DNA of 63,693 nucleotides from Truepera sp. bin119 (GTDB lineage Bacteria > Deinococcota > Deinococci > Deinococcales > Trueperaceae). Both the position numbers and the translations under genes were made by a program. The notes under the pieces are model-generated. The model ran no database searches, had not been told where the DNA came from, and was given only the letters and a program-made list of their open reading frames with translations. Shown in pieces: positions 9,130 through 57,053 of this stretch; the first letter of the stretch is position 1; each line of letters begins with the position of its first letter. The stretch lies in assembly GCA_002239005.1 (NCBI GenBank), contig MPNL01000015.1:1-63693 (forward strand). Reading direction: 5' to 3'.

Positions 9130-9250
9130 GTCGGCAGATCCCAACTGAAAGAGCCTGCCCCTGGGGGCCTACCGAAGAACACCGCGTTGGGCTCGCGGTG
9201 CGCAGCACAGCCCGTCCCTGCGGGCGAACCAAAGAAGGCGGTGATGTCAA

Positions 9251-19683: not shown

Positions 19684-19713
19684 ATCTCACATCCACATCT
19701 CGGACCATAAGCG

Positions 19714-19719
19714 TATGAT
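19714..19719 (+). promoter_or_regulatory. TANNNT-type -10 element for the WecA-like gene
   Basis: TATGAT lies 7 nt before GTG 19727, with no ribosome binding site between them. This spacing matches leaderless promoters known in Deinococcus. No clear -35 box is visible. Confidence 0.4.
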
Positions 19720-19726
19720 AGGGGTT

Positions 19727-21936: not shown

Positions 21937-21942
21937 TACCAT
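21937..21942 (+). promoter_or_regulatory. TANNNT -10 element for folP
   Basis: TACCAT lies 6 nt before GTG 21949 with no ribosome binding site between, fitting a leaderless transcript. The 12-bp gap after wecB leaves room for little else. Confidence 0.4.
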
Positions 21943-21948
21943 AATCCC

Positions 21949-22806
21949 GTGAGGGCTTTCGAACTCCGCTTCCGGCGACCGGTCCCGGGGGGCGAACCCT
22001 CTGGAGAGGGGTTTGCCCTGCGCTGGCAGGGCACCGCCGTCATGGGCATCGTGAACGTCACTCCGGATAGCTTCAGCGACGGTGGTCACTTCGCCACTGC
22101 CGCCGCCGCCATCGATGCGGGGCTGGCCATGGCAGCGGCCGGGGCATTGCTGGTCGATGTGGGAGGGGAGTCGACCAGACCCGGCGCCACCCCCGTCCCC
22201 GCACACGAGGAGTTAAGTCGGGTTCTACCTGTCATCGAGGGGTTGGCAGCGGGAGAGGTGGCGGTAAGCATCGACACCTCCAAGCCCGATGTCGCCAGGG
22301 AGGCACTCTCCGCAGGAGCCTGCCTGGTGAACGATGTAAGGGGGCTCCGGGACCCCGCCCTGCGCGCGGTCTGTGCGGAGGCCGGGGCGCCTGCGGTCCT
22401 CACGCACATGCAGGGAACACCGGAGACTATGCAGCGCGCGCCCAGCTACGGCGACGTGGTCGAGGAGGTGTCCACCTTCCTACGCCGTGGGGCCGAACGG
22501 GCCCTCAAGGAGGGGATCGTGGACATAATCGTCGATCCCGGGATCGGGTTCGGCAAGCGACTAGAGCATAACCTCGCCCTACTACGAGCCCTGCCGCGAC
22601 TCGCCAGCGGACATCCCCTGCTCATCGGGGCGTCTCGGAAGCAGCTCATCGAGTCTCTCTCCGGCGAGACCGCTCCGACCGCCCGAGATCCGGGCAGTCT
22701 GGCGCTCCACCTCCACGCGGCCGCGTCAGGAGCGGCTATGGTTCGGGCGCATGATGTCGCAGCGCACCTTCAGGCGCTCAGAGTCTGGGAGGGGATCGGT
22801 GGATAA
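21949..22806 (+). CDS. folP: Dihydropteroate synthase
   Basis: A 285-residue TIM-barrel enzyme that joins 6-hydroxymethyl-7,8-dihydropterin pyrophosphate with p-aminobenzoate in folate synthesis. Signature 1 is VMGIVNVTPDSFSDGG and signature 2 is VDVGGESTRPGATPV. NDVRGL, DPGIGFGKRLEHNL and LLIGASRKQLI complete the pterin and pABA sites. The GTG start is supported by a -10-like hexamer 6 nt upstream. About 25 residues precede the barrel, a little longer than usual. It overlaps folB by 8 bp and begins a folP-folB-folK run. Confidence 0.93.
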   Translation: MRAFELRFRRPVPGGEPSGEGFALRWQGTAVMGIVNVTPDSFSDGGHFATAAAAIDAGLAMAAAGALLVDVGGESTRPGATPVPAHEELSRVLPVIEGLAAGEVAVSIDTSKPDVAREALSAGACLVNDVRGLRDPALRAVCAEAGAPAVLTHMQGTPETMQRAPSYGDVVEEVSTFLRRGAERALKEGIVDIIVDPGIGFGKRLEHNLALLRALPRLASGHPLLIGASRKQLIESLSGETAPTARDPGSLALHLHAAASGAAMVRAHDVAAHLQALRVWEGIGG

Positions 22807-34038: not shown

Positions 34039-34575
34039 TTGGCGATGATTCTAGCCCGAACTGCACAGCGGACCCGAAGGGTCTGGCCTTCAGCGACCTT
34101 GGCCCTAGCCGGGGTCGTGGTGCTCGGTGCGGTGGCGACGGCCACCGCCGAGACCGGCACCTTCAGGCTGATCCAGGTCGAGATACACGACTACACCAGC
34201 TTTGAATTGGCAGACCAGACGATCACCGGTGGCGCGCTCGAGGGGACGAGCACGATCATCGAGAGCAGCGGCGGTCCGTTCGTGGCGGGCGAGAACAGCC
34301 GCTCGACCTGCATGGTCTATGCGAAGCGGAGTGAGGCGGGGCTAGAGCTCGAGTCGTCGTGCGTCACCACCAACGCCGAGGGCGAAAAGCTGTTCCTGTT
34401 GGCGCAGCGGACCCTGGGTGATGTCGAGGTCGGGCGAGGGGGCGAGGGCCGCCTGCAGCTCTTGGGCGGCAGCGGCAAATTCGTCGGTGTTACCGGGAGT
34501 TGCAGCTATGAGAGCAAGTACTTACCAGACAACTGGATAGTAACGACGGCGGAATGCGAGTGGGAGCGGCCCTAG
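34039..34575 (+). CDS. Small secreted protein, paralogue A
   Basis: A 178-residue exported protein. A basic start (AQRTRR) and hydrophobic segment (ATLALAGVVVLGAVATATAE) form a signal peptide. The mature part, with TITGGALEGTSTIIESSGGP and GSGKFVGVTGSCSYESKYL, looks like an all-beta barrel similar to small lipocalin-like secreted proteins; two Cys pairs could form disulfides (STCMVY/SSCVTT and GSCSYE/AECEWE). I do not know its function. The TTG at 34039 aligns with the ATG of the paralogue at 59279 and follows GGGAG by 6 nt; ATG 34045 is the alternative. The two proteins are about 70 percent identical. Confidence 0.7.
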   Translation: MAMILARTAQRTRRVWPSATLALAGVVVLGAVATATAETGTFRLIQVEIHDYTSFELADQTITGGALEGTSTIIESSGGPFVAGENSRSTCMVYAKRSEAGLELESSCVTTNAEGEKLFLLAQRTLGDVEVGRGGEGRLQLLGGSGKFVGVTGSCSYESKYLPDNWIVTTAECEWERP

Positions 34576-34795
34576 AAGACGATTTGGGGCATCATCTGCC
34601 CTCCCACCCGGCCTGATACCTGAGCGCAGGCACCAAACCGCCGCTCGCGCGGACCTGCCGGCTCACTGCTCTTGCATTTACTGCGACCACCACGTTGCCC
34701 TGGTCGAGGTACGGAGCGGGCCGACGCCTGCGAAGACCGAGGCTATATCTCGGATTCCGGCCAGTGCGTGCCAGCGTGAGGCCCTAGCGCCTGTT

Positions 34796-35000
34796 CAGTT
34801 CGAAGATTGTGCGCAGGTAGACACAGGTCTCGCCGGCCTCCAACTCGACGGTGAAGTCACCGGAGCCCAAGGAGGGGGGCAAGACGCTTGCGAAGTCGGA
34901 CGGTTTTCAGGTTGTGGAGGCTCTCCTCATCGAGGAGGGTGAGGCGGCAGCCGAGGCCGTTTTCGGCGAAGGTGAGCTATGTTCGGAGGTTCTTAGGACT
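34796..35000 (-). pseudogene. Decayed fragment of a type III restriction res gene (second copy)
   Basis: On the minus strand this segment aligns with 44112-44310, the N-terminal ATPase part of the broken res gene. It keeps pieces coding for LRTIFELN and for the segment before the P-loop (DEESLHNL-like), but with frameshifts and a damaged P-loop. The codon after the ELNRR segment is TAG here and TGA in the other copy, so both copies carry a stop at the same place. Confidence 0.6.
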
Positions 35001-35131
35001 GCGGGTGACGGTGAACTCGGTACAGCCGAGCTTCTGGCTAGCGAACAGGGTGCAGATGGCCTCGATCGCCTAGAGTTGGAAATCGAGGTTGGGTTCGCAG
35101 TGGAGTTTCGCCGCGCGGTTCAGGAGCCGCC

Positions 35132-35503
35132 CTATACCACCTTCAGACCGAAAGCCTCGAAACGGCGAAAGTCGGCCACATTCTCGGTCGCGATAGCCGC
35201 GCCGTCGGCGAGCGCCACCGCTGCAATCATGCAGTCGATCAAGGAGCCACGTCGCCGCCCCGTCCCATTGAATAGACGGGCGGCAATCGCCGCGTGATCC
35301 GAGGTGAAGTCACTATGCGACTCGACGATCTGGGTTGCCAACGCTAGCTCAGATCCATCAAGGGGGCCGCACAGGAACTCCGCCCAAGCGACCGCGCTCA
35401 TGCTTAGAGTCTCGCCTGCACCGATCCAATCCCGCAACTTGCGGTCCTCGGGCGACCCCGAGTCCAGCGCCCGAATCAGAAAGCTGGTATCCAGTTGGAT
35501 CAT
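35132..35503 (-). CDS. vapC: VapC-family PIN-domain toxin
   Basis: A 123-residue ribonuclease toxin. PIN-domain acidic residues are visible in MIQLDTSFLIRAL (first Asp), AVAWAEFLCG (Glu), SLIDCMIAAVAL (Asp) and ATENVADFRRF (last Asp). VapC toxins cut tRNA or rRNA and are held in check by the adjacent antitoxin. The start at 35503 overlaps the antitoxin stop by 4 bp (ATGA). The pair sits inside the decayed duplicate of the res/cas3-upstream region, so it probably entered after that duplication. All key residues are present. Confidence 0.85.
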   Translation of the reverse strand: MIQLDTSFLIRALDSGSPEDRKLRDWIGAGETLSMSAVAWAEFLCGPLDGSELALATQIVESHSDFTSDHAAIAARLFNGTGRRRGSLIDCMIAAVALADGAAIATENVADFRRFEAFGLKVV

Positions 35504-35781
35504 TGGGGCTCGGAAGGCAGCCGCCGAGCAGATGCGCGGCGCTCGGCCTCCGAGTCCCGCTCCCACTGTGCGAGATCGACTCTGCGCGCACGTAGCGAAG
35601 CTTGCAATCGGTCGAGGGCGCCGAGTGCCGCAGCGTCATCCGGGTCCCCTGCTGCCGCAAGCCGAATGGCGCGCCGCAACACTTCGGACTTCGGCACATT
35701 CCAGCGCTTTGCCAGCCGCTCGATCGTACGCACGGATTCGACATCCAGCGAGTAGGTCGATTTGATGGTTGTTACGGCCAT
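35500..35781 (-). CDS. vapB: Ribbon-helix-helix antitoxin of the VapBC pair
   Basis: A 93-residue protein. The N-terminal third (TTIKSTYSLDVESVRTIERL, then AKRWNVPKSEVLRRAIRLAA) is a CopG/ribbon-helix-helix DNA-binding fold, and the rest is a charged helix that would wrap the toxin. Such antitoxins repress their own operon by binding near their start codon. It precedes vapC with a 4-bp overlap. Confidence 0.82.
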   Translation of the reverse strand: MAVTTIKSTYSLDVESVRTIERLAKRWNVPKSEVLRRAIRLAAAGDPDDAAALGALDRLQASLRARRVDLAQWERDSEAERRASARRLPSEPQ

Positions 35782-36099
35782 ATGATTAGGATATGGCCAT
35801 ACTCAGAGTCGCGTCAATCCCCCGTGCCGCAGGAGTTCGCGAGTCTTTGGGCTCAGAGTGTCGGCAAGTCGGAGCCGCTCCCGAGATCCTCAACAGCCAC
35901 CCGCTACGCCGCTACCGATCTGAATCAAGCTGTGTTAAGCGCCAGAGACACGCCCGCACAAAATATGCCCTCACTCGTCTGGGAAGTAATCTTGAGTCTA
36001 TTCCCCTCAATATCGTAGGTAGCCTCGGGTAGCCATATAGTCGATCAGGTGTTCGGCGAGTCGAGTCCCCAATCAGCATGATCTCGGTCTCTTCGGAAA

Positions 36100-36223
36100 C
36101 CAGGTTGCCGTGGGATGGATCCAGAAGCTGGCAGATTGCGGCTCCTGGATAGCATCAGGTATCGTGCTACGGATCTTGGCGGGTTACCCGGCATCTTGGC
36201 ATGACTGCGCTGACGGGTATTGC
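36100..36223. repeat. Decayed copy of the sequence upstream of cas3
   Basis: Aligns at roughly 75-80 percent identity with about 44350-44470. Shared blocks include GGATCCA.AAGCT.GCA, CGGCT.CTGG, GGTATCGTG, TTGGCGGG.TACC, CATCTTG.CATGACTG and TATTGCGA. No protein is evident. The match stops exactly where the degenerate CRISPR repeat starts. Confidence 0.65.
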
Positions 36224-36255
36224 GATCCCCCGGCATGCGCGGGGAGGGGATAGAC
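36224..36255 (+). repeat. Solitary degenerate CRISPR repeat
   Basis: This stretch reads TCCCCCGGCATGCGCGGGG and then AGGGGATAGACC. The array repeat reads TTCCCCCGCACACGCGGGG and then ATAGACC. The stem CCCCG/CGGGG and the 3' handle ATAGACC are kept. The loop differs and 4-5 bases are inserted. It follows directly the decayed cas3-upstream sequence. Confidence 0.5.
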
Positions 36256-36350
36256 CTTGATGGCGGCACCTTGTGGTGGGGCGTGGCAAAACAGGTGTGC
36301 GGAGGGCTACCTCAGGGTGTTGGCTGACCAGGTTCAGGAGGAGTTGCGAT

Positions 36351-37034: not shown

Positions 37035-37203
37035 TGCGACGTGGCAGCGCCTGGTTTTTGCGGACTGGGACGGGGCGCCAGGCGCGTCTGAGTGAGCCCG
37101 GCGGCCTGGATTTTCGGTCGCTTCGCCGACCGTCAGCCTGGCGTTGCAGTGGCGACAACAACCCAGACCGTGCAAGCACGCGCCAACCCGACGAAGTCAT
37201 TCC

Positions 37204-41459: not shown

Positions 41460-44310
41460 TTAACAAGTTAGGTTAGCAAGTCCCACGAGTAACTCATCGA
41501 CAGTGGTCGCCTCCGCATATTGGGCCGGAGACTGCCCTGCCCTGAGCGCGTCGAAGTGCGCCCTGCCGCATCTGATCTTGGCGCTCTCGGTGGTGCGAAG
41601 ATCGCTGCTGAACAGGCTGCCCTTCGTCTCAACTACCAGGTAGAGCCGCTCCCCCTCTTCAGAGTCGACCAGCACGGCCCAGTCCGGGTTATAGCTCCCG
41701 AGCGGCGTCGGCACCTTGAACCAGCTGGGGAGCTTGGCGTACACCTTGACGGCGGTGTTCTGCTCTAGCTGCTCCGCAAACTTGGCCTCGGTACCGGACT
41801 CGTAGACGACCTGTTCGTAGACCGATTTGGTCGAGTCGAGCATGTTCCTCAGGTAGCCGGTCAGCTCCTCCTCTTCGAAGAGTTCCTGGGCGTAGTAGCT
41901 ATCCTCCCCGAGGCGGCGGTAGCTGATGCCGTCGACCAGCGCCTGCTGTTTACAGCGGTTGATGGCCTGGGCAGCGAGTTCGATGAACCGTTGGGGATTG
42001 CGCTTGAAGTCAGCGAGGCGTCCGCTCTCAGAGAGGATCCGCTGGATGCTGCGTCGGGTGAGCTGGGTCCGGTCCTGAAGTTCGGTGAGCAGATCGGGCA
42101 GTTCGGTCTCGGTCTCATCCAGGCCCACGGGGGCCGAGACGGCCCGCTCGGTCGCCTCCACCCCGGCCTTACCGATGGCGATATCGGCCTTGCGCTACTG
42201 GAGGCGGGTCCTCGGGATGGCTGGAGCCTCCCGAAGCGCCTGGGTGCACTGGGTGAGCAGCTCTTCGTTGTCGAACGCCACCCGGTAGGTGGTCTTAGGT
42301 TTGATCCGGTCCCAGAGCGCCCTGAATTCGGGGCTCTGGAGCAGCGCCTGACGGGGGCGTACCTTGCGCCGTTCGTCGGCATTCTTGATCTCGAAACGGC
42401 CAGCCAGCTTGCGCAGCTCCGCGGCGATCTCAGCGCGCTGTCCGGTGAACTTCTCCGGGACGATGAACGGTTCCTCGTTGAGCGCCAGCCGGAGCAGGTC
42501 CTGGATCCGCCCCGTCCCGTCGATGTAGCCTAGCGACTTCAGGTGGCTCCACAGCTCCTCTGAGGCTTCAAAGCCGAGCGCCGTCACCGCCCCGTCTGTG
42601 CTGGTGACCGGGATGGCGGCGAACTGGCCTGGCTCTACGACGCCGAAGCGAATCCCGGTGTCGGCCTCGATCTCGTGCTGCAGCTTCTCGGCGAACTCCT
42701 CGTAGCTCTCGTTCGCGACGACCGTGAGGGTGTTGAGGCCAGAGTCGCGCAGGCGTCTACCCTCCTGGTCAACGCAGAGGCGGAGGCCGCGGCCGATCGT
42801 CTGGCGCCGCTCCCGCTCGCTCCGAATCTCGCGCAGGGTGCAGATCTGGAAGACGTTGGGGTTGTCCCAGCCCTCGCGCAGCGCCGAGTGGGAGAAGATG
42901 AACTTGAGCGGCGTCTCCAGGCTCAGGAGTTTCTCCTTCTCCTTCATGATCAGGTTGTAGGCCCGTTCGGCGTTGTCGCGACCAGCCTGGTTCTTCTCGC
43001 TGGTCTCAGTCCAGCTGCCCCGCTTGTCGATGGAGAAGTAGCCGTTGTGAGCCTCCTCGGCGGCGCTGGCGGGGTCCTTTCCCTTAAAGAGGTCGAGGTC
43101 CTGGTAGTCGGGGTGCTGGGCGAGGCGCCGGTACTCCGCTTCGAAGAGCTGGGCGTACTCCCCCTTGACGGCATTGCCCTCGGCGTCGTAGCGGCGGTAG
43201 TACTCTACTCGGTCGATAAAGAAGAGGCTCAGCACCTTGATCCCTTGGGGGCGCAGGCGCCTCTCCTTGTCGAGATGTTCCCGGATGGTCCGGCGGACCA
43301 GCTGGCGCTGAACGGTGCGGGGGTCGACGTCGCCGTAGGTCTCGCCTAGGCGGAGGTAGTGCTCACTGCCGGGCAAGCGGAGTTCGACGAACTCGTTGCG
43401 CTTCTCAACCCGGATCTCACCGATGCGGAAGTCGCGGTAGACGGCGCGACCGGTGGTCTGTTCGAGGTCGTCGCCATCCTGGACGATCCTCTCCTGGCGG
43501 CGGACCGACCCTCCGGCCGTCTCGACGTCGAGTTCGAGCTTGGCGCTGATGGTCCCGCGGCGGTTGCTCGTCGACAGCAGCCGGAGGTAGGGACGATTGT
43601 GGGCATCTTGGAGCGTAGCCGACGCCACCTCGATCTGTTTCACCAGTTTGCGTTCGTAGGCGTCGACGGCGTCGAGCCGGTAGATCATCTGATACCGGTC
43701 TACATGGGTCGCCGAGTAGCGGAGGGTGCAGAGGGGGTTCATCGCTGCCAGGGCCTCTTTGCCGCGTCCCTGCAGGCCGCCATCGACACTCTGCGGTTCG
43801 TCGACGATCAGGACGGGGCGGGTGGCCCGGATCAGGTCGATCGGTTTCTCGCCGCCGGTCTTCTCGTTCGCTTGGTAGATGTTGTTGACATCTCTCTTGT
43901 TGATGGCGCCGACCGTCACCACCATGATCTGGATCTGGGGGCTGGTGGCAAAGTTGCGGACCTGACCGAGCTTGGCAGAATCGTAGAGGAAGTGGTTGAA
44001 GGGGGTTTCTGAGTAGAGGGCCTGGAAGTGATCTTCCGTGATCTGGAGTGATTTGTAGACGCCCTCTTTGATTGCGATCAATGGGACTGCGATGACGAAC
44101 TTGGTGAAGCCTCAGCGTTTGTTCAGTTCGAAGATCGTGCACAGGTATGATGTCGGTCTTGCCGGCCCCGGTCTCCATCTCGACGGCGAAGTCGCCGGAG
44201 TCCAAGGCAGCAGGGGTCAAGCCGTTGCGGAGTTGGACGGTTTGCAGGTTTTGGAGAATCTCCTCGTCAAGCAGGGTGAGGCGGTTGCCGATTGCGGAGG
44301 TTGAAGCCGA
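41460..44310 (-). pseudogene. res: Type III restriction enzyme Res subunit, multiply disrupted
   Basis: Read leftward, the pieces rebuild a Res protein of about 950 residues. The N-terminal GNRLTLLDEEILQNLQTVQL and P-loop METGAGKTDI are followed by a frameshift. In the next frame LCTIFELNKR meets TGA (44112-44114) before GFTKFVIAVPLIAIKEG. The helicase part (LIVDEPQSVDGG, FSHSALREGWDNPNVFQICT, RQTIGRGLRLCVD) stays open to TAG 42195-42197. The same frame then carries on to 41460 with the nuclease domain (NPDWAVLVDSEEGERLYLVV, then ETKG). One extra base also breaks the start (FNL to AIGNRL). No mod methyltransferase gene is present. It is upstream of cas3 in the opposite direction. Confidence 0.85.
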
Positions 44311-44329
44311 TCGAGTGCCGGGATTCGGA

Positions 44330-44483
44330 AATCATGGGGTTTCGGTGGGAGCTTCCGGATCCACAAGCTAGCAACCTACGGCTTCTGGGCAGTACCAAGG
44401 TGGTATCGTGATATGGATTTTGGCGGGCTACCCTACCGACATCTTGACATGACTGTGGTGACGATATTGCGACGAACGAACAG
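44330..44483. promoter_or_regulatory. Region upstream of cas3
   Basis: About 150 bp between the broken res gene and cas3. It is duplicated in decayed form at 36100-36223. The copies are best conserved around TTGGCGGG.TACC and CATCTTG.CATGACTG. It probably holds the cas3 promoter; I cannot place -35/-10 boxes with confidence. No ribosome binding site precedes cas3 ATG 44484. Confidence 0.4.
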
Positions 44484-47024
44484 ATGACGCGCAAAGCTTG
44501 GGGCAAGACTGACAGGGAGAGGGGCGGCGCCCACCCACTGGCGCATCACTGTATGGATGTGGCAGCGGTATTTGCGCGGATGACGGAGTTACCGACCATC
44601 CGTAATCGGTTGAATGTCGCAGCAGACGCCCCGCTAACGGATTCGGCTCGCCAGCGGCTAGCAGCCTTGGTGTTCCTGCATGACATTGGAAAGTTGCATC
44701 CGGGATTTCAGGCGAAGGGCTGGCCCTCAAAACTGTGGAACAGGTCTTTGAGGGGGCATCTGAAGGAAGGATGGGAATTCCTGACACTGGCCTTGAAATG
44801 GCCGGAGCACCCGTTTCACGAGACGATGAAGGAGATTATGCAATGGGGAGCGGTCGCACCACTCATTGCAGCGACTATTGCGCATCACGGGCGGCCCGTA
44901 GAACCATCGTCAGCTCCGACACTCAAGGATTGGCCTTCCTTGCCCCATTACGACTGGCGGGTAGAAGCATGCGTAATGGACGAAGCATTGCATTGCTGGT
45001 TCGCCGGAGCCTTCGAATCCGGGGGGGCATCTCTGTCGGGCAGGCCGCAGTTCCACCACGCAGTTGCCGGGCTAGTAGCACTAGCGGATTGGATCGGATC
45101 GGATACGAGATTCTTCTGTTTCGCGGAACCTCTGGACCGCAGCTACGACTCCACAGCCCACAATGCTGCAGCCCAAGCCCTAGCGGCAATCGGCTTGGAC
45201 CCTGGCACGTTGGCCACTCACCCAGTACCGGATTTTGCGAAGCTGTCAGGCTTCCCCAAACCCAACTCGGCACAGATCACAGTCGGGAATGTGGAGTCGA
45301 CAGCACGACTCCTAATTCTTGAAGCCGAAACTGGATCGGGCAAGACGGAGGCCGCACTGTGGCGCTTCACTCAGCTCTTTGCTGCAGGAGAGGTCTCGGG
45401 CCTCTACTTCGCTGTGCCGACGCGCGCCGCTGCCAGACAGCTTCATAGCCGTATCGTTAAAGTGCTGCACCGGGTGTTCGGCGAAGCTGCACCCGAAGCT
45501 GTCTTAGCTATCCCCGGCATGCTGCGTGCGGGAGAATTCGAAGGCCAACGTCTGCCGCACTGGCGCGTAAGGTGGGATGACGATGCACAATCGGCTCCGC
45601 AACGATGGGCGGCGGAGCACGCGACACGGTTCCTAGCAGCATCGGTCGCGGTCGGCACAGTGGACCAAGCGATGCTCGCGGGACTTCAGGTTAAGCATGC
45701 GCACTTACGGGGCAGTGCGCTAACTCGCAGCCTTTTGGTGATCGACGAAGTTCACGCCTCCGACGCCTACATGACCGAGATTCTAGTGCAACTCCTAGAA
45801 GGTCATCTCGCCACTGGGGGCTATGCAATGCTGATGTCTGCAACGCTGGGTGCACGAGCGCGGGTGCGCTGGACTCGCGACACATTACCGGAGTTCGGAG
45901 TCGCAAGTGCGGCACCCTATCCGGCGGTCTGGGTACAAGGGGAAACCGAACCGCGTGTAGCGACAGGAGCAGGCCGGCCTAAGGCAGTACATCCAGAAAC
46001 TGTGCCGACGATGGATCCGGGGGAAACAGCGGAACGAGCAATCTCGGCAGCGAGGCAGGGTGCACGAGTCCTGGTGATCCGCAACACAGTCAGCAAGGCG
46101 GTGGCCACTTGGCGCGCTGTACAGGAGGCTGGGGCCGGATCACTACTGATGCAGGTGGCGGCCGGGCCAGCGCTGCACCACGGCCGCTTCGCAGTCGAGG
46201 ATCGCTCCCTGCTCGATCAAGCCGTGGAAACGGCACTTGCCCCCGACAAAGATCGAGAACGACGAGGTTGTATCGTCATTGGAACACAAACTCTGGAACA
46301 GTCTCTCGATATTGATGCCGATCTACTGATTTCCGATCTCTGTCCGATGGATGTGTTATTGCAGCGCATCGGGCGTCTACACCGACACGACTTGCCCCGG
46401 CCTGAGGCCTTCGAGGCTACCCACGCCGTCGTGCTCCTTCCAGAAGATGGGTTAGATCGTCTTACGGCGCCGGCTTTCTTTAACGGGCTAGGGGGGTGGG
46501 AGGAGGGAGGAGGGTTTAACGGCATCTATCAGGACCTCGCAGGACTGGAGTTGACCCGCCAGTTGATCGAAGAGCATTCTGTTTGGCAGATACCGGAGAT
46601 CAATCGCAGACTTGTAGAAGGTGCCACCCACCCCGACCGAATCGCCAGGCTAATTGCTGAGAAGGGGGAGGATTGGGAGCGCTATGACAGGATAAACGGC
46701 GGTGCGAGAGCAGCGGAAAGGATGATTGCCAAGTACAACGTGCTGGATCGCTCGACAAGATTCGAAGACCTGCGCTTCCCCAGTTCCGATGAACGGATCA
46801 TGACCCGCCTGGGGGAAGAAGGTGTGATCCTGTCATTCGAGCCACCGCCCGAAGGTCCCTTTCACTGCTCCATAACGCGGATTGCCCTGCCGGCACGCTG
46901 GTCCCACGGGATCGCGAAAGATGACCGAGTGGAGATCACGCAGGACAAAGCCGGCCTGATCCTGTCGGTCGGAGAATGGCGTTTTCGCTACTCGCGTGAA
47001 GGGCTGGAGCAAATCGCCTCTTGA
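44484..47024 (+). CDS. cas3: CRISPR-associated nuclease-helicase Cas3 (type I-E)
   Basis: An 846-residue interference effector recruited by Cascade to nick and shred target DNA. The N-terminal HD nuclease has HPLAHHCMD (H17, H21, D25) and FLHDIGKLHPGF (H66-D67). The SF2 helicase has Walker A EAETGSGKTEAAL (about residue 280-292), DEVH in VIDEVHASDAYM, motif III SATLGARAR and motif VI LLQRIGRLHRH. A C-terminal accessory domain completes the normal I-E length. It is the first cas gene, separated from cse1 by 322 bp that includes a small ORF. The GC content seems lower than that of the core genes, in keeping with transfer. Confidence 0.95.
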   Translation: MTRKAWGKTDRERGGAHPLAHHCMDVAAVFARMTELPTIRNRLNVAADAPLTDSARQRLAALVFLHDIGKLHPGFQAKGWPSKLWNRSLRGHLKEGWEFLTLALKWPEHPFHETMKEIMQWGAVAPLIAATIAHHGRPVEPSSAPTLKDWPSLPHYDWRVEACVMDEALHCWFAGAFESGGASLSGRPQFHHAVAGLVALADWIGSDTRFFCFAEPLDRSYDSTAHNAAAQALAAIGLDPGTLATHPVPDFAKLSGFPKPNSAQITVGNVESTARLLILEAETGSGKTEAALWRFTQLFAAGEVSGLYFAVPTRAAARQLHSRIVKVLHRVFGEAAPEAVLAIPGMLRAGEFEGQRLPHWRVRWDDDAQSAPQRWAAEHATRFLAASVAVGTVDQAMLAGLQVKHAHLRGSALTRSLLVIDEVHASDAYMTEILVQLLEGHLATGGYAMLMSATLGARARVRWTRDTLPEFGVASAAPYPAVWVQGETEPRVATGAGRPKAVHPETVPTMDPGETAERAISAARQGARVLVIRNTVSKAVATWRAVQEAGAGSLLMQVAAGPALHHGRFAVEDRSLLDQAVETALAPDKDRERRGCIVIGTQTLEQSLDIDADLLISDLCPMDVLLQRIGRLHRHDLPRPEAFEATHAVVLLPEDGLDRLTAPAFFNGLGGWEEGGGFNGIYQDLAGLELTRQLIEEHSVWQIPEINRRLVEGATHPDRIARLIAEKGEDWERYDRINGGARAAERMIAKYNVLDRSTRFEDLRFPSSDERIMTRLGEEGVILSFEPPPEGPFHCSITRIALPARWSHGIAKDDRVEITQDKAGLILSVGEWRFRYSREGLEQIAS

Positions 47025-47142
47025 CAAGCTTGACAAGGTATCTCTGGATCTGGTTGGATAAGGAACTATGTCACTGGTTGTAAAGTGCGCTTTCTGGTCA
47101 TGAACCACCTTTATACGTAACGAGCTTTATTTGGAGGAACAG

Positions 47143-47346
47143 ATGATGTGGCTCAGAGCAAGCTTGGAGCTCGAGTTTCCAAGGCGACTTGGTAACTGGG
47201 GCGGCACTCGCCGATGGACGTGCATCGCGATGCTGGCTTTTTCCCGAAAGCAGTCTCGGGATAGACCCGATGTGACTGGGTGTGGGCCATTCGGTCAGAC
47301 AGGTTCCCCATCGCTCATGGGGTCGCCAACGGTACCGGATCGGTAA
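47143..47346 (+). CDS. Candidate small protein encoded between cas3 and cse1
   Basis: A 67-residue reading frame beginning MMWLRASLELEFPRRLGNWG and ending PSLMGSPTVPDR. TTTGGAGGAAC gives a strong ribosome binding site 5 nt before ATG 47143 (8 nt before ATG 47146). Its TAA (47344-47346) is followed directly by the cse1 ATG, which has no convincing site of its own, so translation of this frame could feed ribosomes to cse1. I recognise no family. It may be a coupling leader peptide, a small Cas accessory, or chance. Confidence 0.4.
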   Translation: MMWLRASLELEFPRRLGNWGGTRRWTCIAMLAFSRKQSRDRPDVTGCGPFGQTGSPSLMGSPTVPDR

Positions 47347-48885
47347 ATGAACCTTTTGACCGATCCGGTCCTGACTCTTTCTGGAGGCAACCAGGCTTCG
47401 CTCCCCGCCCTGTTTGCAGCGATGGCCAGGGGGGAGGTGCGGGATTTTCCCGTATTGCGTCCGCACCAGCGCCCGGCCTGGCACATGTTCCTTGTGCAGC
47501 TTGGTGCGCTGTCGCTTCGGGCAGCGGACATTAATGAACTCCCAAAGGATGCAGAGGAATGGGCCAGTGCCTTGCGTGGATTGACGCCGAACCATACTGA
47601 CGACGCGCCCTGGCGGCTCATTGTCGACGAATGGGATAAACCGGCCTTCCTACAACCGCCGGACCCGGGTAGCCTTAAGTGGTCCAAGGTGGAGACGCCT
47701 GACGCTTTGGACCTGCTCATCACCTCCCGCAACCATGACCTGAAGCAGACCGTGGCAAGGCAGGCGACGGCGGAAGATTGGATATTCGCGTTGGTATCGC
47801 TGCAAACGTGTGAGGGCTTTGGTGGCAGAGGGAATTATGGTATCGCCCGCATGAACGGTGGATCATCCAGCCGCCCGATGCTGGGACTCGTCCCAGGCCG
47901 AGAGAAGGACGTGTCTGTAGATCCTTCCGCGTGGTGGGCACGGGACGTTCAACGATTAGTCAAGGCGCGCGCAGTAGAGGGAAGAGAAGTCGGCATCGTG
48001 GGCGGACCTGCCCTCCTATGGTGCCTCGACTGGCCGGGAGGTCAACAACTTGACTTGCGCAACCTAGACCCTTGGTTCATCGAGATATGTCGCCGGGTGC
48101 GGTTGGTGGGCGCGGACGGTGTGATCTCTGCTCGGCGCACCACATCGAAATCTGCACGGATCGACGCGAAGGTGCGCAAGGGCAATCTTGGCGATCCTTG
48201 GGCACCGGTCCACAAGATGGAAGGCAAGAGCCTTACGATCAGCGGCGGGAATTTCGATTACAAACGGCTTTGCGAACTTCTGTTCTCCGGCGATTGGGAG
48301 GTGCCACTCCTCGCTCGGCCGGAAAGTAGCGAAACCGGCGATATGCTTCTGGTGGCCGAGGCTCTTTCGCGCGGCAACAGCAAGACTGAAGGTTTCAAAT
48401 CCCGTGTCGTCCTAGTGCCAGGACAGGTAATATCGCTTCTTCCGTCGGAGACCACCGCAACTCTTTCCAAAGCGCAAATGCAGGAGATCGAAGGATTTGA
48501 CGGAGCTATAGGGAAGGCACTTGCACTGATGGCTGCGGGGGGTGAGCGCAGTGCTGTCAAGAAGGAGCATTATGCTCATGCTAGACCAGCACGCGCGCGC
48601 TTCGACCGCGCCGCCGATCAATTGTTCTTCCCCAGCCTGTGGCGGCGAGTCGCAATCGCTTCACATAGCGACGATGCGGTTTTCAAGGCTAAGTACGACT
48701 TCCTCGACAATTTGATGAAAGCGGCGCAGGCCGAATTGGATGCCGCGCTGCCCGCAATCTCCTGCGCCGCGATTCACCGACCCAGGGCAGAAGCACGAGC
48801 ACGGCAGGTCTTCAGGGGAACCCTGCGAGGCAACCCTGCTTGTCGCGAACTGTTCATCGGAGAGGAAATGAATGTCGCAGTGTAA
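47347..48885 (+). CDS. cse1: Cascade large subunit Cse1 (Cas8e)
   Basis: A 512-residue protein of the type I-E effector complex that reads the PAM and recruits Cas3. The start MNLLTDPVL is the family signature. Other marks are LLITSRNHDLKQ, WIFALVSLQTCEGFGGRGNYGIARMNGGSS (the L1-loop region) and a C-terminal helical bundle ending at NVAV. The ATG directly follows the stop of the small ORF. It overlaps cse2 by 14 bp. Confidence 0.92.
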   Translation: MNLLTDPVLTLSGGNQASLPALFAAMARGEVRDFPVLRPHQRPAWHMFLVQLGALSLRAADINELPKDAEEWASALRGLTPNHTDDAPWRLIVDEWDKPAFLQPPDPGSLKWSKVETPDALDLLITSRNHDLKQTVARQATAEDWIFALVSLQTCEGFGGRGNYGIARMNGGSSSRPMLGLVPGREKDVSVDPSAWWARDVQRLVKARAVEGREVGIVGGPALLWCLDWPGGQQLDLRNLDPWFIEICRRVRLVGADGVISARRTTSKSARIDAKVRKGNLGDPWAPVHKMEGKSLTISGGNFDYKRLCELLFSGDWEVPLLARPESSETGDMLLVAEALSRGNSKTEGFKSRVVLVPGQVISLLPSETTATLSKAQMQEIEGFDGAIGKALALMAAGGERSAVKKEHYAHARPARARFDRAADQLFFPSLWRRVAIASHSDDAVFKAKYDFLDNLMKAAQAELDAALPAISCAAIHRPRAEARARQVFRGTLRGNPACRELFIGEEMNVAV

Positions 48886-49438
48886 GGAAACCCCAACGCA
48901 GGCAGTGATGGCCGCCGCCGCAATGATGCGAAACCTTGACCCTGGCCCGCTGGCAGAGTTACGCCGGATGGACGCTAGCACAGGCGCACCTGCATTCTGG
49001 CGACTCGCAGCGAAACATCCAAACACTATCGGGGGAAGAAAAACGCAGGAGCGGTGGATCGAAATCATCCGCATAGTCGCCATCCTGACTCCAAAGGGCG
49101 ACCCTGCTACTCGGCCTCCCTTGCACGACCCCAACCGCCGACTCGGTGCAGTGTTATGTGATGGTGGCAGTCCGTCTTGGCCCGGTGGTGGACAGCCGAG
49201 GCCAGCTTTCAGCGAACGCCGGCTAGCGCAGCTCATGGCCGCGCGCGGGCCACAGCGCGCGATACTCCTAGAACGCGCAGCCCGAATGCTTGCAGGCAGC
49301 CGAGAATCGGGCAGCGGAGTCGATGTTGTCGACATAGCCTGGATATTACTCAAGCCTGACAACGGGCAGCGGCTGGCCGAACCGTATTACCGTCGACTCG
49401 ACCGGGCCGAACGGGCCATCGAAGAAGGGACTGCTTGA
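48872..49438 (+). CDS. cse2: Cascade small subunit Cse2 (Cas11e)
   Basis: A 188-residue helical protein, present in two copies per Cascade complex, that stabilises the displaced strand. Family-like segments are LAELRRMDASTGAPAFWRLA and LAQLMAARGPQRAILLERAA. It overlaps cse1 by 14 bp and cas7e by one base (TGATG), so the operon is translationally coupled. Confidence 0.88.
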   Translation: MSQCKETPTQAVMAAAAMMRNLDPGPLAELRRMDASTGAPAFWRLAAKHPNTIGGRKTQERWIEIIRIVAILTPKGDPATRPPLHDPNRRLGAVLCDGGSPSWPGGGQPRPAFSERRLAQLMAARGPQRAILLERAARMLAGSRESGSGVDVVDIAWILLKPDNGQRLAEPYYRRLDRAERAIEEGTA

Positions 49439-50655
49439 TGACAAGACCGCGTTTCCTGCAAATCCACACGCTGAGCCCCTATACGGCCGCGCTTCTCAAT
49501 CGGGACGACAGTGGGCTGGCGAAGCGCCTGCCCTATGGCGGCGCGCTGCGCACGCGAGTGTCATCCCAGTGCCTCAAACGGCATTGGCGCATCGCCGACG
49601 GCCCCCATGCATTGCTTTCCATCAATGGCGTGGAGAAATCCATCCGTTCGCGCGATCTTGTGACGGACGGTGTTGTTGCTGAAGCCCGTAGTCGTCTCGG
49701 GGAAGAACTCGTGGAGGAGGTCGCCTCAGCGCTCGAGCCCTGGTTTCAATTCGCAGTGTATGGCTCAAAGAAGGAAGATCGCCCGAAGGAGCGGGGGGGC
49801 AAGACATCCAAGTTCATGGAGAAATCCAGTAGACAAACCCTCCTGTTCGGCAAGCCGGAGGTTGACTGGCTCACATCGGAGTTTGTACGTCTCTGCAAGG
49901 AGGCGGATGGCGATCCTGATGCTGCGTTCCGCCTAGGGGGTGAATGGGTGGATGGCGCTGATGTTTCCAATAAGGCACAAGGGGAAAAGAAGGCATTCCT
50001 GAACAACATGAAGGTGATGCGCGAGAACGCTGCACTACCTGCTGGCCTTACATCGGCGCTGTTCGGGCGAATGGTCACATCGGATCCAGATGCGAACATT
50101 ACTGCACCGATGCATGTCGCCCATGCGTTTACAGTCCACGCGGAGGAAGCGGAGAGCGATTACTTTACCGCTGTCGATGACCTCTCGGGCGATGAGCCGG
50201 GGGCGGACACGATTCAGGAGACCGAACTGACTTCCGGCCTATTCTATGGCTACGTCGTCATCGACTTACCGGGGCTGGTATCGAACCTCGGCCGTGATGC
50301 GGAGCTAGCAGGACAGGTACTGCATAATCTGATCTACCTGATCTCTGAGGTTTCCCCTGGAGCCAAACTGGGATCCACTGCCCCTTATGGTCGGGCATCT
50401 TTCATGCTGCTGGAGGCCGGGGACAGGCAACCCCGTAGTCTGGCCGAAGCCTATCGCACTCCCTGCGACCCTCATACCGGACCAGCGGTTGCAGCCCTGT
50501 CACAGCACCTTGCGGCGCTGGATGAAGCCTATGCGACTGGGGAGGAGCGGCGCATGATGTCGCTGACGAATACCGAGGTGCCGGGAGCCGAGAGCGGGTC
50601 GCTAGCCGATCTCGCAAGTTGGGTGCAGAGCCTGCCGGGGGCGGCATTGTCGTGA
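49438..50655 (+). CDS. cas7e: Cascade backbone subunit Cas7e (Cse4/CasC)
   Basis: A 405-residue RRM-fold protein; six copies hold the crRNA spacer. The start RPRFLQIHTLSPYTAALLNR and the block YGGALRTRVSSQCLKRHWR are diagnostic, as are DPDANITAPMHVAHAFTVHA and LGSTAPYGRASFMLLEAG. ATG 49438 overlaps the cse2 stop; a TTG one codon earlier is open but less likely. It overlaps cas5e by 4 bp. At 405 residues it is longer than the E. coli protein (363), with an inserted Lys-rich segment around 105-120 (GSKKEDRPKERGGKTSKFME). Confidence 0.93.
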   Translation: MTRPRFLQIHTLSPYTAALLNRDDSGLAKRLPYGGALRTRVSSQCLKRHWRIADGPHALLSINGVEKSIRSRDLVTDGVVAEARSRLGEELVEEVASALEPWFQFAVYGSKKEDRPKERGGKTSKFMEKSSRQTLLFGKPEVDWLTSEFVRLCKEADGDPDAAFRLGGEWVDGADVSNKAQGEKKAFLNNMKVMRENAALPAGLTSALFGRMVTSDPDANITAPMHVAHAFTVHAEEAESDYFTAVDDLSGDEPGADTIQETELTSGLFYGYVVIDLPGLVSNLGRDAELAGQVLHNLIYLISEVSPGAKLGSTAPYGRASFMLLEAGDRQPRSLAEAYRTPCDPHTGPAVAALSQHLAALDEAYATGEERRMMSLTNTEVPGAESGSLADLASWVQSLPGAALS

Positions 50656-51371
50656 ACCCTTGCTGGCTGGTCCTGCGACTCGAAGCACCGCTGATGGCCT
50701 TCGGGGGTGTGGCGATAGATCAGGTCGGCCCGGTGCGGGATTTCCCAGCGGCCTCGATGCTAACCGGACTGATTGGCAATGCACTCGGCTGGCACTGGTC
50801 AGACAGCGCTGCGCATCAAGCAATCCAGAACCAACTGATCTTCGCAGCGCGTCGCGAACGGGAAGGGGTGCTGCTGACCGACACACAGAATGCGCAGCTT
50901 GCTGGGACCGACAAGGGCTGGACAACGCGTGGAGCACCGGAGGGACGGGGCGGTGCAAGCTATGATGCTCCTCATCGGCGATTGCGGGACTATCACGCCG
51001 ATCTGTCGGTACGTGTCGTGCTGCGTCTCGTCCCGACAGAAGGGGTCCCGACGCTCGAAGATCTGGCAGAGGCCTTCGATCGGCCTGCACGGCCGCTGTT
51101 CCTGGGGCGCAAGCCGTGCCTACCTTCCGCCCCTCTGCTAGCAAACGAACCGGCCCGCTGGGTAACCGGCAACACGGCTCACGAGGCGCTGCGCACTGTG
51201 CCCGGACAGGGAAATCTCCGCGCGCTGTGGCCGGTGGGACAGGGCCCCGAGGCGGGTAATGGTGTTGACCGTATCACCGACCTAGCCGATCTACGGAACT
51301 GGCACACCGGTCTACATAGCGGATCGCGCCGCGTGGTAGAGGGCCGGGTCACTCCAGAGGTCACCGGATGA
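50652..51371 (+). CDS. cas5e: Cascade subunit Cas5e (CasD)
   Basis: A 239-residue protein that caps the 5' handle of the crRNA. Family blocks are LVLRLEAPLMAFGG near the N terminus, FPAASMLTGLIGNALGW and RPLFLGRKPCLPSAPL. The GTG at 50652 overlaps the cas7e stop and gives the normal N terminus; the frame is open 11 codons further up. It overlaps cas6e by 4 bp. Confidence 0.92.
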   Translation: MNPCWLVLRLEAPLMAFGGVAIDQVGPVRDFPAASMLTGLIGNALGWHWSDSAAHQAIQNQLIFAARREREGVLLTDTQNAQLAGTDKGWTTRGAPEGRGGASYDAPHRRLRDYHADLSVRVVLRLVPTEGVPTLEDLAEAFDRPARPLFLGRKPCLPSAPLLANEPARWVTGNTAHEALRTVPGQGNLRALWPVGQGPEAGNGVDRITDLADLRNWHTGLHSGSRRVVEGRVTPEVTG

Positions 51372-52156
51372 CGTCACTGAACCTGATCCGTGTGCCGGTG
51401 GCTACTAACGCGCTCGCGCGTTGGGCGGGAGAGCGTGGCTGGGCCCGAGGACATGGCAGGGTCGCCGCCTTCGACGAAGGACGCGCGTTGCATCATCTGC
51501 TGAGCGAGATACTGGGGCCAGGTGTGCTCCGTCCTTTTCGAATGCTTGTCCCACCCCGTCGGACTCAAGGCAACCTTTATGGATATTCCAAGCTAGACGC
51601 AGTGGCGCTGCACGCGGCCGCTCGGGCTCATGCCCTGCCAGATCATCTGAGTGTCCTGTCTCTTGATCGGCTGGAGGGCAAGCCCATGCCTAATATCTGG
51701 CGTGTCGGGCAACGGCTGGGGTTCGACCTTCGTGTGCGTCCCATCCGGCGGCTGCGTAGTGAATGGTCTACCCCGTCGGGAGAGAAGATTAGCCAGGGGT
51801 CTGAGATTGATGCATTCTTGCTAGAAGTCCTGCGCCAACATCCCACTGCGCCCGACGGAATGGTGGAAGAGAATCGGACACGCGAAGTCGTCTATCTGGA
51901 CTGGTTGGCCCAGCGGCTAGCGCCCGCCGCCGAGCTCAATCGCTCGACAAGTCGCCTCGCGCGGTTCCGACGTACCCGCGTCTCGCGCGGAAACAGTGGC
52001 CTTGAAGGACCAGATGCCACGATCCACGGAACCCTGACCGTGACCGACTCTGCCGCTTTCGCCGGACTGCTAGCGCGCGGAGTCGGACGGCATCGCGCCT
52101 ATGGCTACGGCATGCTGCTGCTGCGACCTCCAAACCGGCCAGCACCGGAGCGCTGA
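51368..52156 (+). CDS. cas6e: crRNA-processing endoribonuclease Cas6e
   Basis: A 262-residue enzyme that cuts the repeat hairpin and leaves the ATAGACC(C) handle. The likely catalytic histidine is in DEGRALHHLL (H42 or H43), in line with His26 of the E. coli protein. The C-terminal Gly-rich loop GVGRHRAYGYGMLLLRPP is typical. The length is larger than the E. coli protein (199), with extra residues between the two ferredoxin-like halves. It overlaps cas5e by 4 bp, and cas1 starts one base after its stop. Confidence 0.92.
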   Translation: MTSLNLIRVPVATNALARWAGERGWARGHGRVAAFDEGRALHHLLSEILGPGVLRPFRMLVPPRRTQGNLYGYSKLDAVALHAAARAHALPDHLSVLSLDRLEGKPMPNIWRVGQRLGFDLRVRPIRRLRSEWSTPSGEKISQGSEIDAFLLEVLRQHPTAPDGMVEENRTREVVYLDWLAQRLAPAAELNRSTSRLARFRRTRVSRGNSGLEGPDATIHGTLTVTDSAAFAGLLARGVGRHRAYGYGMLLLRPPNRPAPER

Positions 52157-53026
52157 GTGCTCAAGGGCCGACTCGGCATCGACAGCGCGAAAGTCCCTCA
52201 TAAGGACCGAGCAGGACTGCTCTATCTCGCGCGCGGCGCGCTGACCGCGCGAGACGGCACGCTTGCCTTTATGCAGAAGGAAGCGACAGCGGCCGACGCA
52301 CTCACACCCGGCGATCATGCGATCCCACTTCAGGGCATCTCAATCATCCTGCTTGGACCGGGTTCCACAGTCAGCCATGACGCACTACGACTACTCGCTT
52401 ATGCACGTACAGCCCTCGCTGCAGTTGGAGAGGATGGCGTGCGGTTCTATACCGCACCGCCACTGATCCCGGACCAGTCCGGACTGGCACGGAAACAGGC
52501 ACGGCTTTGGGCCAATGATGGTCTGCGCGTGATGATTGCGCGACGCATGTATGCTTGGCGATCAGGGGAAGTGCTACCGCACAGCTCTCTGGACAAGTTG
52601 CGCGGGATCGAAGGTGCGCGGATGAAGGAAAGCTACCGTCTGCTCGCCCGGCAGATCGGGGTAGACTGGCACGGGCGGCGCTATGACCGTGCCCAGCCAC
52701 AGGCGGCGGACTTTGCCAATCAGGCGCTCAATCATGCATCCAGTGCAGTGGAGGCTGCAGCTGCCATTGCTGTTGCTGCAACAGCGACAATTCCGCAATT
52801 GGGCTTCATTCATGAAGACCCGGGACAATCATTCGTTCTGGACATTGCCGACCTCTACCGCGACACCGTGATCATTCCTTGTGCCTTCCGCGCCGCCAAG
52901 CGTGTCGCTGAACAGCCGGGAGAGAATATCGAACGCATCACCCGCCGTGTCACAGGACAGACACTAGCCCGAGAACAGATCATCCCTGCAATGATCGGTC
53001 GGATTAAATCTCTGTTCTCGGATTAA
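52157..53026 (+). CDS. cas1: CRISPR adaptation integrase Cas1 (type I-E)
   Basis: A 289-residue spacer integrase. Metal ligands: E152 in LRGIEGARMKESY, H219 in LGFIHEDPGQS and D229/D232 in FVLDIADLYRDT. The GTG start directly follows the cas6e stop. Length and residues indicate an active enzyme; it works with Cas2 in adding new spacers next to the leader. Confidence 0.94.
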   Translation: MLKGRLGIDSAKVPHKDRAGLLYLARGALTARDGTLAFMQKEATAADALTPGDHAIPLQGISIILLGPGSTVSHDALRLLAYARTALAAVGEDGVRFYTAPPLIPDQSGLARKQARLWANDGLRVMIARRMYAWRSGEVLPHSSLDKLRGIEGARMKESYRLLARQIGVDWHGRRYDRAQPQAADFANQALNHASSAVEAAAAIAVAATATIPQLGFIHEDPGQSFVLDIADLYRDTVIIPCAFRAAKRVAEQPGENIERITRRVTGQTLAREQIIPAMIGRIKSLFSD

Positions 53027-53066
53027 GTCTCTGTCCGCCGGATGAAACGGAGAGGGACAAATACCA

Positions 53067-53360
53067 ATGCCGACGACTCTGGTTGTCACTCGCAACGTCG
53101 AGGCCCGCTATCGTGGCTTCCTCACTTCGATCATGCTAGAAGTTGCGCCCGGCGTCTATGTGGCGCCCGATCTGTCGGTGGGTGTCCGAACGCGAGTGTG
53201 GAATGTGCTGTCCAGCTGGTGGAGTGTACTGAGGAATGGGTCGATCGTTATGGTCTGGCGGGATACACAGGCTGTTGGAAACCTCCGAATCGAAATTCTC
53301 GGTGAGCCCCCTAAAGAGATCGTGGACGCGGACGGAGTTCTACTCGTAAAGCGACAGTAG
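53067..53360 (+). CDS. cas2: CRISPR adaptation protein Cas2 (type I-E)
   Basis: A 97-residue protein that bridges the two Cas1 dimers. It has the Cas2e pattern TLVVTRNVEARYRGFLTSIM, then GVYVAPDLSVGVRTRVWNVL and GSIVMVWRDTQAVGNLRIEI. The 40-bp gap after cas1 contains a second start region with GAGAGGGAC upstream. It is the last cas gene before the leader and array. Confidence 0.94.
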   Translation: MPTTLVVTRNVEARYRGFLTSIMLEVAPGVYVAPDLSVGVRTRVWNVLSSWWSVLRNGSIVMVWRDTQAVGNLRIEILGEPPKEIVDADGVLLVKRQ

Positions 53361-53791: not shown

Positions 53792-56700
53792 GGTTCCCCC
53801 GCACACGCGGGGATAGACCCTGGATCGGCACCAAGGTGTCAGCTGGCTGGGGGGTTCCCCCGCACACGCGGGGATAGACCTGTTGAAGGGTTCCACGTCC
53901 TGCTGAATCAGAGGGTTCCCCCGCACACGCGGGGATAGACCCTGTTCCTGCTCCTCTAGCTCCTGCTCTACCTGGGTTCCCCCGCACACGCGGGGATAGA
54001 CCCCGATGACCTCAGCCCTGGGCATCCCCCTTCTGGGTTCCCCCGCACACGCGGGGATAGACCCTTCCCCTCCCCCATCAATCGGTAGATGGTGGCGGTT
54101 CCCCCGCACACGCGGGGATAGACCCACCGTAACAGCGGTGCAGGCTACCGAGGCGCAGGTTCCCCCGCACACGCGGGGATAGACCCCCTTCTTTGTGGTG
54201 CCCCGGAGGGCGTTTGAGGGTTCCCCCGCACACGCGGGGATAGACCCCAGCTGGAGGCGGCTCTGTGGAGAGGAGTGCCGGTTCCCCCGCACACGCGGGG
54301 ATAGACCCGGGTTGCAGACAAGGTGGCTTGGGCGCGGCGAGGTTCCCCCGCACACGCGGGGATAGACCCCAGGGATGGAGACGAGGTGACTCTGGAGCCC
54401 TGGTTCCCCCGCACACGCGGGGATAGACCCAAAAACGAGATTGAGATGGCTGCCTATGACCAGGTTCCCCCGCACACGCGGGGATAGACCCTTTGGCAAG
54501 TACGATGTGCCCGAGGGCATCAGGGTTCCCCCGCACACGCGGGGATAGACCTGGGGTTGGGCAACCACTTCCCCCGCAACGTCGGGTTCCCCCGCACACG
54601 CGGGGATAGACCCACGCTCTATCACTTCCAGGTGAGGGCGGTCAAGGTTCCCCCGCACACGCGGGGATAGACCCCGAGTTGCGGGCCCGCACCCTGGCTT
54701 GCACCGGGTTCCCCCGCACACGCGGGGATAGACCCCCCGTGAGACCCAGACGCCTGGATGAGAAGTCGGTTCCCCCGCACACGCGGGGATAGACCCGGTA
54801 CGGTCCCGCAACCTCAGCTACCGCGAGCGGTTCCCCCGCACACGCGGGGATAGACCCATCGACCGCTACGACGCTGAGGACTCGGCAGTGGTTCCCCCGC
54901 ACACGCGGGGATAGACCCCGGCCGTCCGCGATAAGTTTGCCCGGGCCATGGGTTCCCCCGCACACGCGGGGATAGACCCTCACTGGTACTCTGCCGGTAT
55001 CGGCCCCAGGTGGGTCCCCCGCCCACGCGGGGATAGCCCCTCTCTGGTCCTCTGCCGTTACCGGCCCCAGGTGGTTCCCCCGCACACGCGGGGATAGACC
55101 CCAGGGCCTGCCATCGAGCGCGGGGCCCATGTGGGTTCCCCCGCACACGCGGGGATAGACCCGGGATCCAGACCAACGGCGTCCTGATCGACGCGGTTCC
55201 CCCGCACACGCGGGGATAGACCCCCGTGCCAGCCCTGCTTACCACTGCTGCCCAGGGTTCCCCCGCACACGCGGGGATAGACCCGTCAGGTGGAGCCGAG
55301 GCGCCGAGATTGAAGTGGTTCCCCCGCACACGCGGGGATAGACCTGATGCACTCGCCTCGTGCCTGATCCTCAGCAGGGTTCCCCCGCACACGCGGGGAT
55401 AGACCCCTCTTTGCGATCGCTGATGCGCTGCGGGAGTTGGTTCCCCCGCACACGCGGGGATAGACCCGTGATATGCCGCTCGAGGTCGTCCCAAGCAGGG
55501 GTTCCCCCGCACACGCGGGGATAGACCCTCAGGGAGGGTGACAGCCTCTGGGTCCGCTGGGGTTCCCCCGCACACGCGGGGATAGACCCCAATCGAGCAC
55601 CCCGCGCCACGCATTGCCCACGGTTCCCCCGCACACGCGGGGATAGACCCGTAGTGCCAGCGGTGGCGCGGTTTGACCCCCAGGTTCCCCCGCACACGCG
55701 GGGATAGACCCGGATATCCCGGAGCCTAGCCGTTCACGCGGTCGGTTCCCCCGCACACGCGGGGATAGACCCTCTTTCCTCTCAACCTCGCTCATCGCGC
55801 CTCCGGTTCCCCCGCACACGCGGGGATAGACCCTATCAGTGGTTCGTAGCCCTGTCCGATCCAGAGGTTCCCCCGCACACGCGGGGATAGACCCCACCTC
55901 TGCCGCCGCATCCCAATCCCAGGCCGGGTTCCCCCGCACACGCGGGGATAGACCCGAGTTCGGCGCGACCTTCCTCAGCACCTTCTCGGTTCCCCCGCAC
56001 ACGCGGGGATAGACCCGACAGTGACTGGAGCTGGAGAGCGCGGAACCCGGTTCCCCCGCACACGCGGGGATAGACCCTTCGGCGGCGAGGTCGGCGGGAA
56101 GCGGCGCCAGGTTCCCCCGCACACGCGGGGATAGACCCCTGGCAGCGGATCGAGGGGCACGCCGAGCCCGGGTTCCCCCGCACACGCGGGGATAGACCCT
56201 GGTACGCCTACGATGCAAGCCTCACCGAGGCGGTTCCCCCGCACACGCGGGGATAGACCCATTACCAAGGCCAGCGGCGAGGGCGAAAACACGGTTCCCC
56301 CGCACACGCGGGGATAGACCCCCGGATGGAGTTCAGGGGCAACCTTGGCCAGTGGTTCCCCCGCACACGCGGGGATAGACCTCGAGGCTGCTCGGCTTCT
56401 CGCCCTCCGCGCCGGGTTCCCCCGCACACGCGGGGATAGACCCTATGCCGACATAGCCGGTGACGCCTGGCCCACGGTTCCCCCGCACACGCGGGGATAG
56501 ACCCTCGGTGTCGTCCACCAGAGTGTCGAAGGCGTAGGTTCCCCCGCACACGCGGGGATAGACCCAAGACCGAAGAGGTTCCGACCGCTGCTGAGGGGGT
56601 TCCCCCGCACACGCGGGGATAGACCCTGATCGGCGGCAACCGCGCCCACGCAGTCCTGGGTTCCCCCGCACACGCGGGGATAGACCCGCCCGCTGCTTAT

Positions 56701-57053
56701 ACGACAAGGCCACGCAGTAGGTTCCCCCGCACACGCGGGGATAGACCCGGCACCTCAGATGTGATCGCGCACGAGGTCGAGGTTCCCCCGCACACGCGGG
56801 GATAGACCCTAATGCCTGACATTTTTGGGCGCAACGAGAACGGTTCCCCCGCACACGCGGGGATAGACCCCAATCACTCGCTTGCATGGCTCGCCGCCTT
56901 CTGGTTCCCCCGCACACGCGGGGATAGACCCCACGCTATGACTGCCGATGTCGCCTTTGCCGAGGTTCCCCCGCACACGCGGGGATAGACCCCATCACCT
57001 TCTTTGGCTGGCTGCTCATCAAAAGGTTCCCCCGCACACGCGGGGATAGACCC
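53792..57053 (+). CRISPR. Type I-E CRISPR array: 54 repeats, 53 spacers
   Basis: The 29-bp repeat starts GGTTCCCCCGCACACGCG and ends GGGATAGACCC, with a CCCCGC/GCGGGG stem and an ACAC loop. The first starts at 53792 and the last at 57025. The distance equals exactly 53 x 61 bp, so spacers are 32 bp throughout. Four repeats end in T instead of C at position 29 (53853, 54524, 55317, 56354). One repeat (55012-55040) has three other changes. The last repeat is intact, which is unusual for an old distal end. Leader and cas genes lie to the left, so new spacers are added at 53.8 kb. No spacer target could be searched here. Confidence 0.98.
55012..55040 (+). repeat. Mutated internal repeat flanked by near-duplicate spacers
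   Basis: Repeat 21 of 54 has T to G at position 3, A to C in the loop and A to C in the handle (ATAGCCCC). The spacers before it (54980-55011) and after it (55041-55072) match at 28 of 32 positions. Confidence 0.85.

Follow-up and report, generated by a model that had tools for sequence, protein, structure and literature searches.

A likely relic of a duplicated left edge of a type I-E CRISPR-Cas locus

Results and discussion

Positions 34776 to 36256 of the analysed stretch of DNA (the window, one complete contig of 63,693 bases from an assembly of 3.2 Mb in 91 contigs) are best explained, with moderate confidence, as a relic without function, derived from a duplicate of the left edge of a type I-E CRISPR-Cas locus. 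At this edge a type III restriction gene (res) and cas3 face in opposite directions, away from the intergenic region that they share. This left edge would then have been duplicated. The copy within the relic (the far copy) would have been stripped of the remainder of res at one end and of the cas genes and array at the other, the one eroded repeat that it carries being the scar of the latter. The copy adjoining the intact locus (the near copy) would have retained cas genes and array, and lost about 1.1 kb comprising the res 5' end and a VapBC pair. The original prediction of a duplicated and since decayed junction is supported for res and the cas3-upstream region.

The coordinates of all features are collected in Table 1. 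At the near locus all eight cas genes of a type I-E system are found together with a CRISPR array, and res lies on the minus strand to the left of the cas operon.

Table 1. Features of the far and near copies and of the intact type I-E locus (positions in the window)
Feature	Positions	Strand	Evidence or remark
Far res 5' fragment, codons 2-118, pseudogene	34776..35108	-	Matches intact L048 Res; 34776-34954 = block 1
VapC-like PIN-domain toxin gene, intact frame	35132..35503	-	PF01850 E 9e-15; NCBIfam VapC E 2e-8, below curated cut-off
Antitoxin-like small gene, 93 aa, overlaps vapC	35500..35781	-	Reading frame
Block 2, far copy of cas3-upstream region	36092..36225	+	72.7% identity to 44324-44472; 32 SD above shuffles
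Degenerate type I-E CRISPR repeat (taken as repeat-derived), end of block 2	36226..36256	+	Score 30 against array repeat; exact 3' end GGGGATAGACC
Near res, codons 52-987, pseudogene	41487..44301	-	65% protein identity to L048 Res; 44104-44291 = block 1
Block 2, near copy of cas3-upstream region	44324..44472	+	Ends 11 bases before cas3 start codon
Type I-E cas operon, complete: cas3, cas8e, cas11e, cas7e, cas5e, cas6e, cas1e, cas2e	44484..53360	+	Pfam and PADLOC matches
CRISPR array, 54 repeats of GGTTCCCCCGCACACGCGGGGATAGACCC, 61-bp unit	53792..57053	+

Two homologous blocks

Comparison of the window with itself yields two blocks that are shared by the far and the near copy. Block 1 pairs 34776-34954 with 44104-44291 (78.8% identity over 189 columns, E 1.8e-26 in a window self-BLAST), and block 2 pairs the two cas3-upstream regions (72.7% over 150 columns in the window self-comparison). 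Local-alignment scores lie 52 SD (block 1) and 32 SD (block 2) above those of shuffled sequence. The blocks are collinear and have the same strand in both copies, which lie about 8 kb apart. This bears out the earlier claim of two blocks in the same order: the self-comparison, a check of the dot-plot type, returns strong collinear blocks and not scattered matches of low identity. The homology stands as predicted, but the block boundaries had been placed 10 to 50 bp off.

Searching the whole 3.2-Mb assembly reveals just two copies of block 1, and the same search with near block 2 as the query gives no third copy of block 2. None of the six frames of block 2 has a recognised coding sense. Because the copies differ by 21-27%, an assembly artefact would not be a plausible origin of the blocks.

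Fragments of a type III restriction gene

As a ruler for both res copies we used the intact Res of another genome (G157, locus L048), whose gene shows 77% DNA identity in the best stretch. Homology to type III Res is found in both copies, and the C-terminal part of the near one matches REase_III. Neither copy, however, has the uninterrupted frame with 5' end and Walker A motif that a functional Res needs. The far fragment contains three in-frame stops and a frame shift, and has lost two Walker A codons as well as the start codon; the near gene misses its 5' end, contains two stops and shifts frame near codon 96. The two truncations are complementary and the overlap between the fragments is block 1: homology with the near copy stops at 34954 in the far copy, whereas res itself continues to 35108. 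Describing the far copy as a decayed second copy was therefore correct as regards the decay, but it is not merely a decayed version of the near copy, since the res 5' end (codons 2-118), lost from the near copy, is still present in it. A close Mod partner is absent from the genome (best match 33%), and no remnant of the gene upstream of the intact L048 res was found in the far copy.

Counted by codon position, the differences between far and near copy amount to 13/7/15, and those on the two branches to 5/4/6 and 7/3/3, which is too few to be decisive for neutral drift. Each copy compared with the intact homolog shows a third-position excess. Small as these numbers are, the pattern is what a split and subsequent drift would be expected to produce. 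On the other hand, the near res has only two stops in 890 codons and so died recently, which is hard to reconcile with block 1 having drifted neutrally for long in either copy. One Res residue (TAC in the homolog) is a stop in each of the two copies, TAG in one and TGA in the other. A shared inactivation was considered as the source of this coincidence but is no more parsimonious than independent hits.

The stretch between the blocks

The spacing between the blocks is 1,137 bases in the far copy against 32 in the near copy. The extra far-copy stretch begins the res gene with its 52-54 initial codons; besides these it contains a VapBC-like pair (35132-35781) and some 310 further bases. The presence of VapBC between the blocks had been predicted correctly: a PIN-domain toxin gene is accompanied by a small overlapping antitoxin gene, both in intact reading frames; the NCBIfam match for the name VapC lies below its curated cut-off. 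For the antitoxin-like gene we obtained only a weak NCBIfam match (aCcr1 family, E 3e-4, below cut-off), and we name it VapB, presumptively, from its position and overlap. Within the relic the toxin-antitoxin pair looks intact.

Loss of VapBC from the near copy is more likely than its gain by the far copy. A single deletion of about 1.1 kb in the near copy, covering the res 5' end and VapBC, would explain the whole difference. One such event suffices, as the ancestral state must have included the res 5' end, whereas a VapBC insertion would need an additional event; this is an argument of parsimony and not a proof. A search for target-site or terminal repeats on either side of the far copy gave short matches only. 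A 24-base inverted pair (35121-35144 and 36124-36147, 79%) was considered as a terminal repeat and judged compatible with chance.

The degenerate repeat

The homology of the far copy was predicted to stop where a degenerate CRISPR repeat begins, and indeed a repeat-like element starts at 36226, at the very base where block homology ends. Its palindrome is about five bases longer than that of the array repeat, and its last 11 bases are exact; the 3' end is the one found in the repeat of the intact array, belonging to a complete I-E system 8 kb away. In Markov-random 45-base windows a score of at least 30 is reached in 3 out of 39,998 cases. The match thus exceeds chance at that position (approximately 1e-4), with the restriction that the position was chosen after the element had been seen, so that the true chance value is weaker. 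Scores of 28-30 also occur elsewhere in the window, and it is the element's position that stands out; its score alone would not. An exact GGGGATAGACC has two occurrences in the contig outside the array, and in the rest of the genome this 11-mer is at chance level (four places versus six for a control pattern). Rfam gives no match at 33900-60000. With the caveats of score and of a position picked post hoc, we take the element to be repeat-derived.

No cas gene fragment is found in the far copy. Having one degenerate repeat only, it falls short of a type I-E locus, for which a cas gene or at least two repeats would be needed, and right of 36256 nothing resembles the sequence beyond the real array. 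A former second cas operon at the far site would be indicated only by the single eroded repeat. These absences, together with the scores of 28-30 reached elsewhere in the window, would also fit a shorter event, in which only the junction from the res 5' end to the cas3-upstream region (about 1.4 kb) was copied, the far site never had a cas operon or array, and the repeat-like element matches by chance or arrived separately. We hold this to be possible but clearly the less probable course: an element with the exact last 11 repeat bases then has to start by accident just where the homology ends, at odds which are low even if weakened by the spot being picked afterwards.

Origin of the second copy

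For the relic of a duplicated left edge, a simple tandem duplication would be insufficient, because it is the left (far) copy in which res is truncated at its outer end; one more deletion would be required. The divergence of 21-27% is moreover large for a local duplication, and could point to related res/CRISPR-Cas modules having been imported twice, independently, into one defence-rich region, with later loss of one of them. Both sites are indeed located among defence-type genes (Fic, res, cas, VapBC), and the far repeat differs from the repeats of the array. Still, we regard such a double import as unlikely, given that the copies are nearer to each other than to any relative found and that their differences, though small in number, are spread over the codon positions rather than concentrated at the third.

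A working regulatory RNA, formed by the far cas3-upstream copy and its repeat and acting on the intact I-E effector like the CreR-, CreA- or Racr-like RNAs that exist in other systems (PMC10651486, PMC10097628), is highly improbable: the repeat could still form a short stem and adjoins the cas3-upstream copy, but it is a single one and not one of two degenerate repeats around a spacer-like stretch matching a nearby promoter, the next 32 bases have no above-chance match anywhere in the window, not even in the cas3 upstream region, no consensus promoter faces the repeat, and both the repeat and its surroundings are eroded. We give just as little credence to the idea that the copied cas3-upstream region drives a single-repeat RNA feeding back on the Cascade of the intact locus, which would make it a cas-flanking region turned regulator. 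Apart from the intact-looking toxin-antitoxin pair, nothing in the sequence indicates a current role of the relic.

Leaders and related genomes

Block 2 had also been described as CRISPR leader-like, which we cannot support. We compared it with seven leaders (that of the own array, two of Azospirillum picis, and those of A. argentinense, Bosea, Pontibrevibacter and genome G186); z values range between -1.3 and 0.7, and neither the own leader nor the six of related arrays show similarity above shuffles. Across genera this test is weak, as most such leaders fail to match each other; the negative outcome for the own leader is the stronger one. In three of the closest cas3 relatives an array lies between a leader and cas3, and an ancestral array at the cas3-upstream site is therefore possible.

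The proposed intact ancestral order (res, leader, repeats) was looked for in 198 relatives and 111 genomes of the phylum, and was not found. DNA searches of these genomes never returned block 2, only the res part, and where a genome has both a res and a cas3 match the two are on different contigs or far apart.

Comparison with known systems

The relic is probably genome debris of an ordinary type, similar in nature to the orphan CRISPR sequences that persist after loss of cas genes. In the type I-F orphan arrays of Escherichia coli, CRISPR sequence likewise occurs without adjacent cas genes; there a small array persists of which the spacers match cas genes (PMC8616872), whereas here we find one eroded repeat without a recognisable spacer and a full I-E locus about 8 kb away. 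The I-E loci of A. picis, A. argentinense and Bosea, with an array upstream of cas3, share the operon order, similar repeats and the presence of CRISPR sequence near the cas3-upstream region. In our case, however, there is no array before the intact cas3, the repeat is found at a second copy about 8 kb off, and block 2 is unlike their leaders. Solitary repeat units, or RNA anti-CRISPRs, are likewise lone repeat-like units away from an array, but these are encoded in viral genomes and mimic repeats (PMC10651486), while the present element is eroded, comes from a bacterial contig and forms the end of a duplicated segment. The defining traits of such a unit, or of a Racr, are transcription of the repeat mimic and its binding by Cas proteins. 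Finally, each copy of block 1 represents part of a type III restriction endonuclease Res, but both are pseudogenes, and a close Mod partner is lacking.

As such the relic would illustrate on a small scale how defence-rich regions copy, break and lose CRISPR-Cas loci. It suggests a possible way to spot former loci, namely by a cas-flanking block followed by one eroded repeat. On its own it alters no view of CRISPR biology.

Additional observations

Gene X (34057-34594 and 59306-59846, 80% identical) was considered as the shared flank of a larger duplication and dismissed, as its family is dispersed over seven genomic places. The family members count approximately 185-188 codons, are without a Pfam match and are mostly 78-81% identical; two of the seven places flank the CRISPR region. 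The far site is situated between gene X and an AIM24 gene. At 37144-38772 a single protein combines a dual-specificity-phosphatase-like part with an ADP-ribosylglycohydrolase domain.

In the intact array, spacers 20 and 21 are alike at 28 of 32 positions, and the two adjacent repeat-spacer units to which they belong (54951-55072) look like a tandem duplication. The repeat at 55012 has three mismatches and is the sole array repeat mutated within its first 28 bases. Self-matching spacers above chance are absent within the window. Two further degenerate I-E repeats (58284-58312 and 58761-58787) are located 1.2 and 1.7 kb past the array end, beyond a cytochrome-c-like gene, and may be what erosion has left of the far end of an older array.

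In A. picis two arrays surround one I-E operon (8733-9801 and 19576-22188 of locus L047). Their repeats differ slightly, with CACAGG versus CACATG cores, and the first array holds one repeat of the second type, at 9711.
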